Assembly (NCBI GenBank): GCA_016841605.1 | Contig: JAENYV010000001.1 | Location: forward strand, 62,001-126,000 | DNA length: 64,000 nucleotides | Origin: Dethiobacter alkaliphilus | GTDB lineage: Bacteria; Bacillota; Dethiobacteria; DTU022; UBA8154 | Direction: 5' to 3' | In this document: positions 13,759 to 63,871 of the stretch, piece by piece | Numbering within the stretch: position 1 is the first letter of the stretch | Layout of the letters: every line of letters starts with the position of its first letter | Made by a program: the position numbers and the translations under genes | Notes under the pieces: generated by a model | Told to the model about the DNA's origin: nothing | What the model saw: only the letters and a program-made list of their open reading frames with translations | Databases searched by the model: none

Positions 13759-14868
13759 TTAAATTAGACCTCTTTCCCGCAGCAAGCGGCAGGCATAAAA
13801 CATGACAAAGGTGTCTTTTTCTCCTGTTGCCGACAGAAGACGGCGGGCGCTTTTTTCCAGCCCCTGACTTTTAATTTTCGGATCCGATAGGTAGAGAGCC
13901 AGGAGACCCTTGACCACGGTACGGTGGAAAGCGGGTTCCGGCATTTCTTCTGCCCGGCGAAGTGCTTTTTCAACAAATACCTCCATTCGGTAGAGACATT
14001 GCTCTTTACCGGAATAAAACGAAACAAAATTTAAGTCTTTTTCACGTTGATCCTCTTCCTGATCGATAAAATAGTCCAATAAAATATGTAATCCACAAAT
14101 CCAGGGAAAGTAACCGTTAAAGAGCGTTTCAACTTCATCCGGGTTAATTTCTTGGCGGGAAGCTAATGCCAGGAGAACAAATATTCCCAAAGTGGAACCT
14201 GACGCTGCGGCAAACTCATTCCAGTAGAGGTATGGAAATTTTTTTTGATATCTTTGAAACCATTTAACCAGGTAACGGGAGCGGTTCTCTACTGAAAGGT
14301 GTTTGAGGGCCTGAAGGTCACTATAAAGAGCAGCCAGGAAAAAAAGTTTATCTTTGACTTTTTTATAGCCGGGGAGTTTACGGAGCATCTCCCTGCTTTT
14401 TTTGACCAAATTTTCCAGATATCCTCCGTCCTCATTGATGAAATAAAAGCGGTAATAGTCTTCGTTATTTTCATTCTCAGATTGTAGAGCTCTCAACATG
14501 GACAAATGCAGATAGCGAAAGCCCCTCTCTCTGAAGGTATCTTTTTCCATTTCCGTCAAATATGGTCTGTCCTGCTGCAATGAAATCCTGTCACAAAGAT
14601 TGTCCAGGTAATCACTGATAGTCTGATAAGAGACGATTAAGGGGATGAGCTTTTCAACTGCCGTTGGTTGGAGCAGGGAAAAAACGGCTCCTCCCTGACA
14701 ATGGAACCGCTTCGAGTTGATGCTTTGCAGAGCCTGTTTCCGCAGAAAAGGGGAGGGGCAGGCTTGTAGAGATTGCTTCCAACCCTGCAGTTCCTTTTCC
14801 ACCGCAGGCAGAACCTTTCCAACAAGGCGAATTATAAGCAGCCACTGTATCAGGTGACTTTGCATCAT
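13759..14868 (-). CDS. DUF2600 protein, tetraprenyl-beta-curcumene-synthase-like
   Basis: The 369-residue all-helical protein matches the DUF2600/YtpB family, whose Bacillus member cyclises a C35 prenyl diphosphate to tetraprenyl-beta-curcumene. Visible family features are SYQTISDYLDNLCDR near residue 80, the aromatic RFYFINEDGGYLENLV, and LLDYFIDQEEDQ near residue 265, Asp-rich segments that could bind the diphosphate through Mg2+. It converges on the polyprenyl synthase gene with only 16 bp between stops, a physical link that fits a two-step isoprenoid route. The start is one of two adjacent ATGs at 14868/14865, with AGGA upstream. Confidence 0.82.
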   Translation of the reverse strand: MMQSHLIQWLLIIRLVGKVLPAVEKELQGWKQSLQACPSPFLRKQALQSINSKRFHCQGGAVFSLLQPTAVEKLIPLIVSYQTISDYLDNLCDRISLQQDRPYLTEMEKDTFRERGFRYLHLSMLRALQSENENNEDYYRFYFINEDGGYLENLVKKSREMLRKLPGYKKVKDKLFFLAALYSDLQALKHLSVENRSRYLVKWFQRYQKKFPYLYWNEFAAASGSTLGIFVLLALASRQEINPDEVETLFNGYFPWICGLHILLDYFIDQEEDQREKDLNFVSFYSGKEQCLYRMEVFVEKALRRAEEMPEPAFHRTVVKGLLALYLSDPKIKSQGLEKSARRLLSATGEKDTFVMFYACRLLRERGLI

Positions 14869-17037: not shown

Positions 17038-17064
17038 AAAAAAGATGTAGATTTAATCTTTTTT
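17038..17064. terminator. AT-rich hairpin between convergent genes
   Basis: AAAAAAGAT and ATCTTTTTT pair around a 9-nt loop in the 15-bp gap and the adjacent gene end. It is A-tailed on one side and T-tailed on the other, so it could end both transcripts. The stem is weak. Confidence 0.4.
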
Positions 17065-18591
17065 AAAGAGTCGGGAGAAAAAGCCCTTATTTTTTGTTGA
17101 CAACGTCATGTTCTTTTCCCGGCGTAGGTCCATGAGCTGTTCCTCGAGCTGCTTGATAATGTTCATTTGTTGGGCATTTTCTTCTCTTAATCGTTCTTTC
17201 TCTCTTTCATTCTTGGCTATCCTGTTCAGCAGTTCTTGATTCCGGATCGTTAGTTTTTCCTTTTCATCCTCAATACAACTCTGCAGCTCGAGTAATTTTT
17301 TTTTAAAAAGCTCCTCTGCTTGGTCCAAGGCGATATTTTTATCAGCGAGAATTTTCTCCAGTTCTTGAACTTTGGTCATTTCCCGCTCGCGAACTTTCGT
17401 CAGCTCTTTTTTTGTCTTTTCCAGCTTTTCTTGCAGACTAGTTTGGGATTTATACAGTTCTTTGGAGTGGTTCAGGAAATATGATGAAAGTAAATCAAGG
17501 CTGCGCAAGTGATCATTTAGGTTTTCTTTTTTTTCTCCTTTGTTACTACTCTGTAATAAACCTGGATAAAGTGTTACTTTCGGAGGGATATTGATGGTGT
17601 AAACGTAGGTTATGCCTGTATATTGAAGATGAGCGGGAAACCGGTGCGAGCGTAAGCGAGTTACTTTGGAAGGTCTTGTGTAAAGCAGTTCCCGGCTTTC
17701 ATCCCAGGAACTGCCTCCATTATGGGAACAAATACTGGTTAAACCCTTTTCATTGGCTAAAACCATGTATAGTTGCTTGTTAGTGAAGTAAAGAGGAACA
17801 AGATATAGTAAATTTTCAGAAACTTGCCGGTGCTGAAAGTTTTTCCATTCTCCTTTTGTATTTCTACCGGCATAATTTAAAAAAAATGTTTCCTGTTCTT
17901 GACTAATCCAGGTTGTATGCCAGATATTATCCCGGTCGAGGAGGAAAGTTGGAGTATAAGGCTCCGGATGGAGACCTGTTCCGGGAAAGCCTGTCTTTTT
18001 ATCCAGGCGACCGCTTATTCCATCTATTTTATCCCATGTTAATCGGAAATTGTCACCCTCTTGACGGCAATAAACGGTGTTGATGTTATTTTGCGGATCA
18101 CTAAAAATCGATCCATAATTTGCTGTTGGATAGTAACCATAATCCAGAACAGATCGTTCCGGTTTTTTCCCTTGTTCATAACGATGGTAAAATAACCACC
18201 ACATAAGTTTTTCCTGGTCCACAGCCCGATGGAGGACATGCAAGCGGTTGTCTGCATCAAAACTACAGGAAAGAAAAGTTATTGTTTTTGTGGGGTCTTC
18301 ATATAAAATTTTAACATCTGCAGCAGGATCAAGCGGATTCAGATAAAATATTCTCCCCTCATTATCATAGCTCATAATTTTCAGATTGCCTTTACGGTCA
18401 AAAGCAGCTTCAAAACCGCCAATCTGCCTTGCGAAAAGATTTTGTGATTTTAATTCCCAGTGATTTTGAGCTTGCAGAAACAAAGAAACATGTCCGAAGG
18501 CATCGGTTACAAAATAGCATTGTTCTCCCTCAAATTCTGCCAGGAGGGGAATAATATCCGCTTTAAAAAAATTCCTGTTTGGCACATCCAT
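17053..18591 (-). CDS. Putative beta-propeller plus coiled-coil protein
   Basis: The 512-residue protein is unrecognised by name. Residues 1-340 contain repeated units with Trp, Asp-x-Asp-like turns and short beta strands (CSFDADNRLHVLHRA; CSHNGGSSWDESREL, the latter close to the Asp-box SxDxGxxW of sialidase-type propellers), so I infer a propeller. Residues about 380-495 form a long charged coiled coil (heptads of Leu/Ile with Glu/Lys), and the end is basic and aromatic (GFFSRLFKKD). No signal peptide is seen. It may be a structural or scaffold protein, possibly of the spore. Function is not established. Confidence 0.65.
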   Translation of the reverse strand: MDVPNRNFFKADIIPLLAEFEGEQCYFVTDAFGHVSLFLQAQNHWELKSQNLFARQIGGFEAAFDRKGNLKIMSYDNEGRIFYLNPLDPAADVKILYEDPTKTITFLSCSFDADNRLHVLHRAVDQEKLMWWLFYHRYEQGKKPERSVLDYGYYPTANYGSIFSDPQNNINTVYCRQEGDNFRLTWDKIDGISGRLDKKTGFPGTGLHPEPYTPTFLLDRDNIWHTTWISQEQETFFLNYAGRNTKGEWKNFQHRQVSENLLYLVPLYFTNKQLYMVLANEKGLTSICSHNGGSSWDESRELLYTRPSKVTRLRSHRFPAHLQYTGITYVYTINIPPKVTLYPGLLQSSNKGEKKENLNDHLRSLDLLSSYFLNHSKELYKSQTSLQEKLEKTKKELTKVREREMTKVQELEKILADKNIALDQAEELFKKKLLELQSCIEDEKEKLTIRNQELLNRIAKNEREKERLREENAQQMNIIKQLEEQLMDLRREKNMTLSTKNKGFFSRLFKKD

Positions 18592-18713
18592 CTGTATCTT
18601 CCTTATTGTTTCCTTTTTTATTATTACTCAGTTCTTCGTATGATTATGAGTTGACACTATCACTGCAGCGAAAAATAGTTCCAAAAATTACTATGTATAT
18701 TATTTATTCCAAT

Positions 18714-18757
18714 AAAAACAATAATTACCTGGCAATTGCCAGGTAATTATTGTTTTT
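18714..18757. repeat. 44-nt perfect palindrome between divergent genes
   Basis: Each arm is 22 nt and they meet without a spacer (centre GGCAATTGCC). It lies 26 bp upstream of the -35 box of the CAP-domain gene and 123 bp upstream of the start of the divergent coiled-coil gene. A-rich and T-rich ends give it the shape of a bidirectional terminator, but no gene ends here. Confidence 0.85.
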
Positions 18758-18782
18758 ACAGGATTAGACAAGTTCTTCCATT

Positions 18783-18811
18783 TTGTTAATAAAACGGACT
18801 TTTAATATAAT
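18783..18811 (+). promoter_or_regulatory. Sigma-A promoter for the CAP-domain gene
   Basis: TTGTTA (18783-18788), 17 bp, TATAAT (18806-18811), with a leader of about 25 nt before ATG 18843. Confidence 0.7.
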
Positions 18812-18842
18812 ACTAGACAGTAAATGAATGGAGGATTTAAAA

Positions 18843-19637
18843 ATGAAAAGGAATTTTATCCTGTTTAAGGTTTTCCTGATTGTCGTGCTGTGTTCTTTAA
18901 TCTCTTTTCCCTGCCAGGTTGCTGCTTTTCGTACTACCCTGGACAGGGGAGGCGTGACGGTAAATACTTCTGCCCAGGGCAGCAGTCCAATACCAACGAC
19001 GCCTTCAACCCCTGCGGAGCAACCGGTGGATAATTCGCAGCAATCCGGTAACCAGACTCAGCAGTCTGTTAACCAGATGACAGGCAGCCGCAGCACGATA
19101 TCCCGTTCCGGGGTTTATGTGCCTCCCGCTTCTTCGTCTTCTGAACCATCCGAGACGGACCCTGAGCCTTCACCGTCACAGGATCCCCAGGATCCCGAGG
19201 ATCCCGACTCATCGCCAAACCTGCCGGAGGCCCCGCAGGCTCCTGCCTGGCTAACTGCGGATGAAGCCCAGGCTTATGTCTGGTTAAATGAACTGCGTTT
19301 GCAAAATAACCTGCCTTCTGTCTCCATTGACGCAAAACTTGTCGAAGTCGCCAGGATGAAGGCCCAGGACATGGCTGATAATAATTACTTTAGCCATGTT
19401 TCGCCCACTTATGGGTCCGTCAGCCAGATGCTGCGTAATGCCGGTGTTGTCTATAAAAGAGCCGGAGAAAATCTCTCCAAGGCAGGTAATATTAAACAGG
19501 CTCACCTGCAGTTGGAATACAGCACAAAGGGACACAGAGAGATCATGCTTAATTCCGGTTATAACAAAGTCGGTATCGGAGTTGTTTGTCTTAAAAATGT
19601 TCCGGGAATTGTCCTCGTGGAGATTTTTACAGACTAG
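18843..19637 (+). CDS. Secreted CAP-domain (YkwD-like) protein
   Basis: The 264-residue protein has an N-terminal signal peptide (basic MKRN, then a hydrophobic core to about residue 26) and a low-complexity Ser/Pro/Gln/Asp linker (about 35-130). The C-terminal CAP/SCP domain (about 140-262) carries DMADNNYFSHVSP, RAGENLSKA and GHREIMLNSGYNKVGIG, the conserved elements of the YkwD/SafA-adjacent family. CAP proteins of Firmicutes are exported and envelope- or spore-associated; enzymatic activity is not proven. GGAGG sits 8 bp before ATG 18843. A sigma-A promoter and a strong terminator frame it as a single gene. Confidence 0.88.
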   Translation: MKRNFILFKVFLIVVLCSLISFPCQVAAFRTTLDRGGVTVNTSAQGSSPIPTTPSTPAEQPVDNSQQSGNQTQQSVNQMTGSRSTISRSGVYVPPASSSSEPSETDPEPSPSQDPQDPEDPDSSPNLPEAPQAPAWLTADEAQAYVWLNELRLQNNLPSVSIDAKLVEVARMKAQDMADNNYFSHVSPTYGSVSQMLRNAGVVYKRAGENLSKAGNIKQAHLQLEYSTKGHREIMLNSGYNKVGIGVVCLKNVPGIVLVEIFTD

Positions 19638-19672
19638 AAAAAGAAGCTCCGTTACGGAGCTTCTTTTTTTTA
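19638..19672. terminator. Bidirectional terminator
   Basis: GAAGCTCCG / CGGAGCTTC with a 3-nt loop, flanked by A5 and T8 tracts, sits between the convergent CAP-domain and UDP-sugar dehydrogenase genes. Confidence 0.9.
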
Positions 19673-20984: not shown

Positions 20985-21018
20985 AAAAAAAGGGGCATCA
21001 TATGATGCCCCTTTTTTA
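20985..21018 (-). terminator. Terminator of the aminotransferase gene
   Basis: GGGGCATC/GATGCCCC flanked by A7 and T6 tracts lies 23 bp past the aminotransferase stop. It is close to symmetric and may work in both directions. Confidence 0.85.
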
Positions 21019-48160: not shown

Positions 48161-48198
48161 AATTCAGTGGGAGATTTTCGCTCTCCCACTGAATTTTT
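48161..48198 (+). terminator. Terminator of the nitroreductase gene
   Basis: AATTCAGTGGGAG / CTCCCACTGAATT with a 9-nt loop, then TTT. A modified copy occurs at 59427-59469. Confidence 0.85.
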
Positions 48199-59304: not shown

Positions 59305-59555
59305 ATTGCCTGTCGGAATTTCTGTTTAGCTGCCCATAATCTTGGACTTGGTACAGTGCAAATAGGAAATTATGACCGTCAGAGTGTGAAAGTTACTAAA
59401 AAAATGTTAATGGACTGATCAGGTAAAGCCGTGCAATTCAGTGGGAGTGCCCCACTGAATTGCACGGCTAACGCAAAAACATTGAAAACTTGTTTTCAAA
59501 TAAAATTCTTATTATCTTAAATAATCAGATTGTCGGAGCAGTAGCTATTTTTCAG
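59305..59555 (+). pseudogene. Decayed copy of nitroreductase 3' end plus sigma-54 activator fragment
   Basis: Three blocks match the 47.9-48.65 kb region in the same order and strand. 59305-59389 matches nitroreductase codons at 47912-47996 with about six mismatches in 85. 59388-59445 matches its 3' end and terminator arm at 48113-48170. 59494-59555 matches the PAS coding sequence of the second activator at 48591-48652, with three mismatches in the last 45. The intervening parts are deleted. A short in-frame piece (CRNFCLAAHNLGLGTVQ) survives but has no start. Confidence 0.85.
59427..59469. repeat. 19-bp perfect hairpin in the decayed copy
   Basis: The left arm 59427-59445 and right arm 59451-59469 pair over 19 bp around AGTGC. 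In the parental terminator (48161-48195) only 13 bp pair. No T-run follows. Confidence 0.8.
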
Positions 59556-61990: not shown

Positions 61991-63871
61991 TCATTCCTCC
62001 AAAATAGCGTTAAATTTGCATGTGGAAATACAAGCTTCGCATTTAATACACTTTGTACCGTCAATGGTAAAAGCTTTTTTTATTTCTCCGCTGATGGCCC
62101 CAACAGGACAGATCTGTGAACACTTTCCGCAACCGCGGCAGAGCGAGGCATCGATAGAAATACTTTTTAGGGCCTGACAAATTTTGGCAGGGCATTTTTT
62201 GTCGTATACATGAGCAATGTATTCATCTCTGAAGTACTTGATCGTACTCACAACCGGGGATCCTGCTGTTTTGCCGAGCCCGCAGAGGGAAGTTGCGGAA
62301 ATAGTATCTTCCAGATCAAGCAGAATATCGATATCCTCCGGTTCGCCTTTACCCGATACAATACGCTCAAGAATATTAAGCATTGCCCTGGTTCCCTCAC
62401 GGCAGGGAACACATTTTCCGCATGATTCTTTCTGGGTAAAGTTCATGAAGAAGCGTGCAACCTCCACCATACAGGTGGTTTCATCCAAGACCACAAGGCC
62501 TCCGGAACCCATTATTGCTCCAACTTTTTTTATTGAATCAAAATCAATGGGCAAATCTAAATACTCGTCAGTCAAACATCCCCCTGAAGGCCCGCCGATT
62601 TGTACAGCCTTAAAAGCTTTGTCATCTTTTACGCCGCCGCCGATCTCAAAAACAATCTCTCTTAAGGTGGTGCCCATGGGGACTTCAATCAGTCCGGTGC
62701 TTTTAACATTACCGGTCAAAGAGAATACTTTAGTCCCGGGACTGTTAGCAGTGCCGATTTTGCGATATTCAGCTGCGGAGATATTAATTATTATGGGAAC
62801 GTTGGCAAATGTTTCCACATTATTCAGGACAGTCGGTTTGGCAAACAATCCCTGTTCAACTGTCCGGGGCGGCTTTACACGCGGCATTCCCCTGTTTCCC
62901 TCAATTGAAGCGGTCAGGGCGCTGCCCTCGCCGCAAACAAATGCGCCGGCACCTTGATTAATTTTAATTGTAAAGGAAAAATCCGTGCCGAGAATGTGAT
63001 GCCCCAGCAATCCATATTTTTCAGCCTGTTCAATGGCAATTTTTAGCCTTTTTACCGCTAACGGGTATTCAGCGCGAACATAAATATATCCGTTTTGCGC
63101 GCCGGTTGCGATGCCGGCGATTATCATACCCTCGAGCATTCTGTGAGGGTCGCCTTCCATGATGCTTCTGTCCATAAAAGCACCCGGATCTCCTTCGTCG
63201 CCGTTGCAGATGACATACTTAATTGTTTCCTTATGCCGTTTTACCTGCTCCCATTTTTGGCCGGCCGGGTATCCTCCTCCTCCCCGTCCACGTAATCCGG
63301 CCTCAGAAATTTCCCGGCAGATATCATCCGGAGAAAGATCAAAGAGTGCTGTTTCCAGAGCTTTATAACCGTCGTTTGCAATATACTCTTCAATGGATTC
63401 CGCATCAGTATGTCCGCAATGAGAACGGACAAGACGTGTTTGTTTTTTATAAAAGGGGATCTCCTCCTGTGTTGGATAGATAACACCGTCTTGTTGAAAA
63501 AGTAACCTTTTTACCGGTTTATCTCCGATAATGCTTGTTTCCAGAATCTCTTCGCAATCCTCAAGCTTCACTTTGAGAAACAGCCAGCCGGCAGGTTCGA
63601 TGCGCACGAGAGGTCCCATTTCACAAAAACCATGACAACCGCTTTTTTTCAACCCGATGCTTTCTCCCTCAAGCCCGTGGCCCAGCTCAAATGAACAATT
63701 AACGCCGCGTTCAGCACAAAGGGCTTTCAACCTGTCGAATATTTCGAGGGAACCTCCGGCAACACAGCCGGTCTCTGCACAAACAAGCACTTTCTTTTTT
63801 TGACGGGATAAATGCTCGGCAAAGGTGCGTCTGGCTTCTATCAAATCTTCTTTGCAAGTGAATCTATTCAC
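61991..63871 (-). CDS. hndC: Bifurcating hydrogenase NuoF-like flavoprotein subunit
   Basis: The 626-residue subunit has an N-terminal thioredoxin-like 2Fe-2S domain (about 25-125; VCAETGCVAGG, SGCHGFCEMGP). Next is the NuoF core with GRGGGGYPAGQKW (NADH site), CNGDEGDPGAFMDR (FMN), and the cluster motif ESCGKCVPCREG with a later Cys. A C-terminal pair of 4Fe-4S clusters (CRGCGKCSQICP, CIKCEACISTC) completes it. It couples NAD(P)H, ferredoxin and H2 by flavin-based bifurcation. GTG 63871 has GGAGG 9 bp upstream and overlaps the hndA stop by 8 bp. Confidence 0.92.
   Translation of the reverse strand: MNRFTCKEDLIEARRTFAEHLSRQKKKVLVCAETGCVAGGSLEIFDRLKALCAERGVNCSFELGHGLEGESIGLKKSGCHGFCEMGPLVRIEPAGWLFLKVKLEDCEEILETSIIGDKPVKRLLFQQDGVIYPTQEEIPFYKKQTRLVRSHCGHTDAESIEEYIANDGYKALETALFDLSPDDICREISEAGLRGRGGGGYPAGQKWEQVKRHKETIKYVICNGDEGDPGAFMDRSIMEGDPHRMLEGMIIAGIATGAQNGYIYVRAEYPLAVKRLKIAIEQAEKYGLLGHHILGTDFSFTIKINQGAGAFVCGEGSALTASIEGNRGMPRVKPPRTVEQGLFAKPTVLNNVETFANVPIIINISAAEYRKIGTANSPGTKVFSLTGNVKSTGLIEVPMGTTLREIVFEIGGGVKDDKAFKAVQIGGPSGGCLTDEYLDLPIDFDSIKKVGAIMGSGGLVVLDETTCMVEVARFFMNFTQKESCGKCVPCREGTRAMLNILERIVSGKGEPEDIDILLDLEDTISATSLCGLGKTAGSPVVSTIKYFRDEYIAHVYDKKCPAKICQALKSISIDASLCRGCGKCSQICPVGAISGEIKKAFTIDGTKCIKCEACISTCKFNAILEE

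Follow-up and report, generated by a model that had tools for sequence, protein, structure and literature searches.

The window analysed here is a 64-kb stretch of DNA (positions 62001–126000 of contig 30) from a genome of 4.07 Mb in 36 contigs. A perfect palindrome lies in it at 18713–18758, in the gap between two divergent genes, both of which begin here, as the sequence-only reading had stated. The minus-strand gene (17053–18591) starts at 18591, at a distance of 121 nt from the palindrome, and the plus-strand gene (18843–19637) starts 84 nt from it at an ATG at 18843. This ATG was taken in place of the listed ORF start at 18828 because of the position of the GGAGG motif that precedes it. 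The plus-strand gene encodes a YkwD-like CAP-domain protein (PF00188, E = 6.6e-14), which scores 109 bits against the YkwD model TIGR02909, under the cut-off of 171. The minus-strand gene encodes a protein of 512 amino acids that is conserved in the family and matches no Pfam or NCBIfam family. In PDB comparisons with a profile of 11 members, its C-terminal part, which is coiled-coil-like, finds mostly coiled-coil chains, while its N-terminal part finds weak sialidase/neuraminidase stretches (E of about 0.2–0.8). Elsewhere in the window, 13759–14868 encodes a full-length DUF2600 protein (PF10776, E = 1.9e-125).

The site TTGTTA-17-TATAAT on the plus strand at 18783–18811 scores 10/12 and its -10 element is conserved in the relatives; judged by its sequence, it is probably the promoter of the CAP gene. 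A weaker promoter-like site on the same strand, TTGACA-17-AATAGT at 18651–18679, also scores 10/12 but is not above chance; a short transcript starting from it could run into the palindrome. The promoter scan found no sigma-70-type promoter for the minus-strand gene, and its total of 3 sites compares with 2.1 ± 1.9 in shuffled sequence, which is the chance level. Thus, of the two divergent promoters proposed earlier, the plus-strand one is supported as probable and the minus-strand one finds no counterpart in the scan.

The palindrome is 46 nt long and consists of two 23-nt arms that meet with no spacer. It had been described as 44 nt with 22-nt arms; perfection and lack of a spacer were correct, and the length given (18714–18757) left out one matching pair at each end. 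The palindrome forms the inner part of a wider imperfect inverted repeat at 18700–18771, whose 36-nt arms are 86% complementary. When the window was shuffled 30 times with its dinucleotides preserved, zero-spacer arms reached at most 11 nt, and simple arithmetic from base composition predicts about 1e-9 such palindromes per 64 kb. A sample of 744 kb of the same genome (the window and 34 pieces of 20 kb each, taken from two contigs) contains 35 palindromes with an arm of at least 12 nt and a loop of at most 8 nt, six of which, this one included, have a loop of at most 1 nt. Its arm is the longest in the sample; the palindrome is real and lies far beyond chance.

A 91-nt RNA at the site is predicted to fold at -35.1 kcal/mol (z = -8.5), and none of 200 shuffled sequences was as stable. 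For rightward transcription, a terminator-like hairpin at 18719–18752 (-21.9 kcal/mol) is followed directly by TTTTTACA, the whole feature spanning 18719–18760 on the plus strand. For leftward transcription, a hairpin at 18717–18754 (-24.5 kcal/mol) is followed by TTTATTGG, spanning 18709–18754 on the minus strand. The earlier observation that A and T tracts are placed as in a bidirectional terminator is therefore borne out, with a strong stem and a T-tract on each strand. Position is where the site departs from known bidirectional intrinsic terminators, which lie where the transcripts of known genes end; here both annotated neighbours start. Because of this we class the palindrome as terminator-like rather than as a proven terminator, and a stray or small transcript ending here is possible. 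A dedicated terminator scan did not report the palindrome, although a stem of this length may lie beyond the stem and loop sizes that the scan allows.

The 744-kb sample was surveyed for gaps with a hairpin of -10 kcal/mol or lower directly followed by a T-rich tail; gap classes are approximate since gene starts were taken from the longest ORFs. Such hairpins are found on the plus strand in 8 of 37 convergent gaps, on the minus strand in 8 of 37 and on both strands in 5 of 37. In divergent gaps the corresponding counts are 5, 2 and 1 of 48, and the single divergent gap with hairpins on both strands is that of the palindrome. The five other divergent-gap matches range from -10.3 to -12.7 kcal/mol. 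With one shuffle per gap, the control gave 1/37 and 0/37 for convergent gaps and 0/48 for divergent gaps on either strand. The weak divergent-gap hairpins are nevertheless near background, because shuffled divergent gaps of an earlier 364-kb sample, which lies inside the 744 kb, gave 0/28 and 3/28. By this survey, the palindrome has the shape of a terminator and stands out among sites in such a position.

Other hairpins of this build stand at gene ends in the window. One of them, palindromic and with A/T tails, closes the CAP gene itself at 19638–19668, immediately before the stop of the convergent gene, so that the hairpin lies between two convergent stops, and a second one lies downstream of a gene at 20986–21017. 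Both are near-perfect palindromic terminators with A/T tails, with loops of 1 and 0 nt, respectively. The hairpin at 19638–19668 illustrates what terminators look like in this genome. Two other hairpins of the window, at 48161–48195 and 59427–59469, lie 11 kb apart and have the arm AATTCAGTGGGAG in common; genome-wide, the pattern used for the search is present at only these two places.

The palindrome has no second copy. The 18-nt core occurs once in the 4.07-Mb genome at up to 2 mismatches, with one further site at 3 mismatches, and the reversed control pattern gives equally many matches. The 21-nt arm has no further copy in the genome at up to 3 mismatches, so the check that had been proposed, a search for the same palindrome elsewhere in the genome, came back negative. 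No exact match to the 20-nt core was found in genome_contigs or viral_contigs, from which records of the own genome are possibly excluded, and we set aside the idea of a core common to other bacteria or viruses. Searches of plasmids and phages yielded no similar DNA, and with a single locus in the genome a repeat or mobile element of REP, BIME or MITE type was likewise rejected. This uniqueness argues against a shared operator as well as against a mobile repeat. A known RNA family was also discarded, as no Rfam family reaches its gathering score in the window.

Named relatives are MAGs such as Dethiobacter sp. SURF_39, from which we take the organism to be, probably, an uncultured member of the Bacillota similar to Dethiobacter. 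Homologues of the 512-aa protein are present in 16 of 23 genomes of the family (the own genome included); across the order, 30 of 71 genomes have one. Among 15 loci of relatives within the family, the CAP gene divergently adjoins the minus-strand gene at 12; of the 15, L007 and L012 are at the ends of contigs and in L011 no CAP gene was found. This conserved pairing of the 512-aa protein with a YkwD-like CAP protein merits a functional look in its own right. None of the 12 relatives that keep this pair has a palindrome (arm of at least 11 nt, loop of at most 8 nt) in the divergent gap. Since the pair is kept and the palindrome is not, we regard the palindrome as lineage-specific. At 14 more distant loci of the order, some of them shortened by contig ends, no palindrome was seen before the gene, and the CAP gene is nearby in five. 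The intergenic gap is 251 nt here, compared with 217–239 nt in nine of the ten relatives in which both gene starts could be set; the remaining one has 296 nt. Excluded from this comparison are L012, L014 and L020, in which a start is not set or doubtful. An alignment had given the impression that relatives carry a weak hairpin and T-run at the same place; this was withdrawn, as the scan matches are near the shuffled rate. Matches of -8 kcal/mol or lower occur in 4 of 14 intergenic pieces, none of them reaching -10, and in the 11 relative pieces with a shuffle control 3 match on the plus strand (shuffled rate 0.10) and 1 on the minus strand (shuffled rate 0.06).

What the relatives do share in the intergenic region is a conserved block, YCARTAAATGCTAATAATAA, located about 50–90 nt before the minus-strand gene (L006, L008, L009, L012, L013 and L015), which is perhaps part of the promoter or a regulator site of that gene. 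In four of five genomes searched (G006, G009, G019 and G021) the block occurs at 0–1 mismatches only at this locus; in the fifth (G001) the copy at the locus has 3 mismatches. In local alignment, the best minus-strand matches of the palindrome arm are this same block in six relatives, 50–86 nt before the gene, with individual p values of 0.007–0.12. A profile of the block, built from 7 of 14 relative intergenic pieces (L014, L016–L019, L020 and L062 were unused), scores 28.4 bits on the plus strand over the left arm and its outer flank (18704–18733), in inverted orientation, and 20.0 bits on the minus strand over the right arm; the resemblance is suggestive. On shuffled gaps the profile reaches a mean of 13.9 and a maximum of 27.0 bits in 400 shuffles, and a maximum of 19.8 bits in a set of 300. 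The arm with its flank is also the best of 756 genome tiles with more than 60% AT and of 545 with more than 62% AT. The sub-parts alone are unexceptional (flank 16.8 bits, shuffle maximum 20.4; arm 19.6 bits, shuffle maximum 20.9), and L016–L019 score no higher than their own shuffle means on that strand. The likeness was noticed first and tested afterwards. Because the test is post hoc, the sub-parts are not significant and the better of the two matches is inverted relative to the relatives, we treat the likeness as a lead, which suggests that the palindrome arms may descend from a locus-specific cis-element turned into an inverted pair.

Several known systems resemble the palindrome in part. 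It shares with bidirectional intrinsic (Rho-independent) terminators a GC core, an A-tract and a T-tract on either side and a strong hairpin on both strands; it differs from them in lying between gene starts rather than ends, in having arms without a spacer and in having tracts that lie partly within the stem. PMC2965389 (Genome Biol 2010) describes 5' terminators, attenuators and terminator/operator palindromes, with which it has in common a terminator hairpin near gene starts, and proposes that a palindrome may switch between terminating transcription and binding a factor. Unlike the 5' terminators and attenuators described there, it is not conserved in the gene family. BIME/REP units are likewise palindromic and, according to the same paper, able to terminate transcription both ways, whereas the present palindrome is single-copy in its genome.

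The reading that we prefer, with a probability of about 0.42, is that the palindrome is a lineage-specific hairpin of the bidirectional intrinsic-terminator type, located between divergent gene starts and acting as an insulator. Transcription across it, from either side, would give an RNA with a stem of 15–17 bp around the CCTGGC/GCCAGG core, and the U-tract that follows (UUUUUA rightward, UUUAUU leftward) would lead to release. Stray short transcripts, from the CAP promoter firing backward or from cryptic promoters opposite, would in this way be stopped before the start region of the opposite gene. Sequence, folding energies, gene order and absence from the relatives are established, whereas it is inferred that transcripts reach the palindrome, that they would be terminated efficiently and that the cell would benefit. 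Bacterial promoters commonly fire in both directions, accounting for 19% of the RNAs detected in E. coli in the data quoted from PMC12825309, which makes the need for a two-way stop plausible. Of the three roles suggested earlier (promoter insulation, binding of a dimeric regulator and cruciform extrusion), insulation fits best, given a stem and T-tract on both strands like those at 19638–19668 and 20986–21017. Against the terminator reading stand three observations: the same gene pair in 12 relatives manages without the palindrome, with only weak hairpins and T-runs in the gap; the A/T tracts are themselves partly taken up by the stem; and the terminator scan passed the site over.

The main rival is a neutral mutational origin, in which a polymerase switched templates within an imperfect inverted repeat, so that one arm became a copy of the other, and the resulting perfect palindrome was tolerated because of its place outside genes and core promoters. 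Such quasipalindrome template switching, which increases complementarity, is established in E. coli (PMC7202029). The absence of the palindrome from all relatives compared, the gap, which is longer than in nine of ten relatives, and the perfect inner 46 nt within a decayed wider repeat, the pattern that partial perfecting of an imperfect repeat would leave, are consistent with it. We hold it to be somewhat unlikely, as the T-tracts and GC core give a good two-way terminator shape that chance products need not have and the pre-switch state is seen in no close relative. The two lines may also be joined: a template switch would have made the conserved, non-palindromic cis-block into a head-to-head inverted pair, creating a two-way terminator and possibly a doubled binding site. 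This is unlikely in our estimate, and since the block matches better in inverted orientation relative to the relatives, an extra event is needed. If true, a terminator would have been born out of an existing promoter element.

Between divergent starts, dyad symmetry stands in a usual position for an operator, and the likeness of the arms to the block upstream of the minus-strand gene, which no shuffle in the sets of 400 and 300 equalled, would suit the operator of a locus-specific dimeric regulator of one or both genes. However, a dimeric regulator's operator would be expected to have further copies before co-regulated genes or to be conserved at the same locus, and this palindrome is unique and absent from the relatives, whose block is non-palindromic and confined to this locus. 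No regulator gene was found among the six neighbouring ORFs scanned, and 46 perfect base pairs exceed the need of a dimer. The dimeric-regulator proposal is weakened by these results to a locus-specific site, which is possible though rather improbable. More improbable still is a terminator for a small RNA, unannotated and about 75 nt long, transcribed from the TTGACA-17-AATAGT site with a start near 18686; the order of promoter-like site, hairpin and T5 fits such a transcript, but promoter-like matches in the region are at chance level, Rfam offers no family in the window and the relatives have no comparable hairpin. A DNA cruciform serving as a supercoiling sensor has only a very slight chance of being correct. 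A perfect 46-nt palindrome, the single strand of which folds at -20.1 kcal/mol (z = -9.4), could extrude, but it is not conserved in the relatives, and the GC pairs flanking its centre make for slow extrusion.

Should the palindrome be neutral, it would add one to the palindromes that template switching leaves behind. If the terminator-type hairpin works as we propose, the locus would show cleanly how a terminator can serve to insulate divergent promoters from each other, and the absence of the palindrome from the relatives would provide a natural before-and-after comparison for how such insulators arise.
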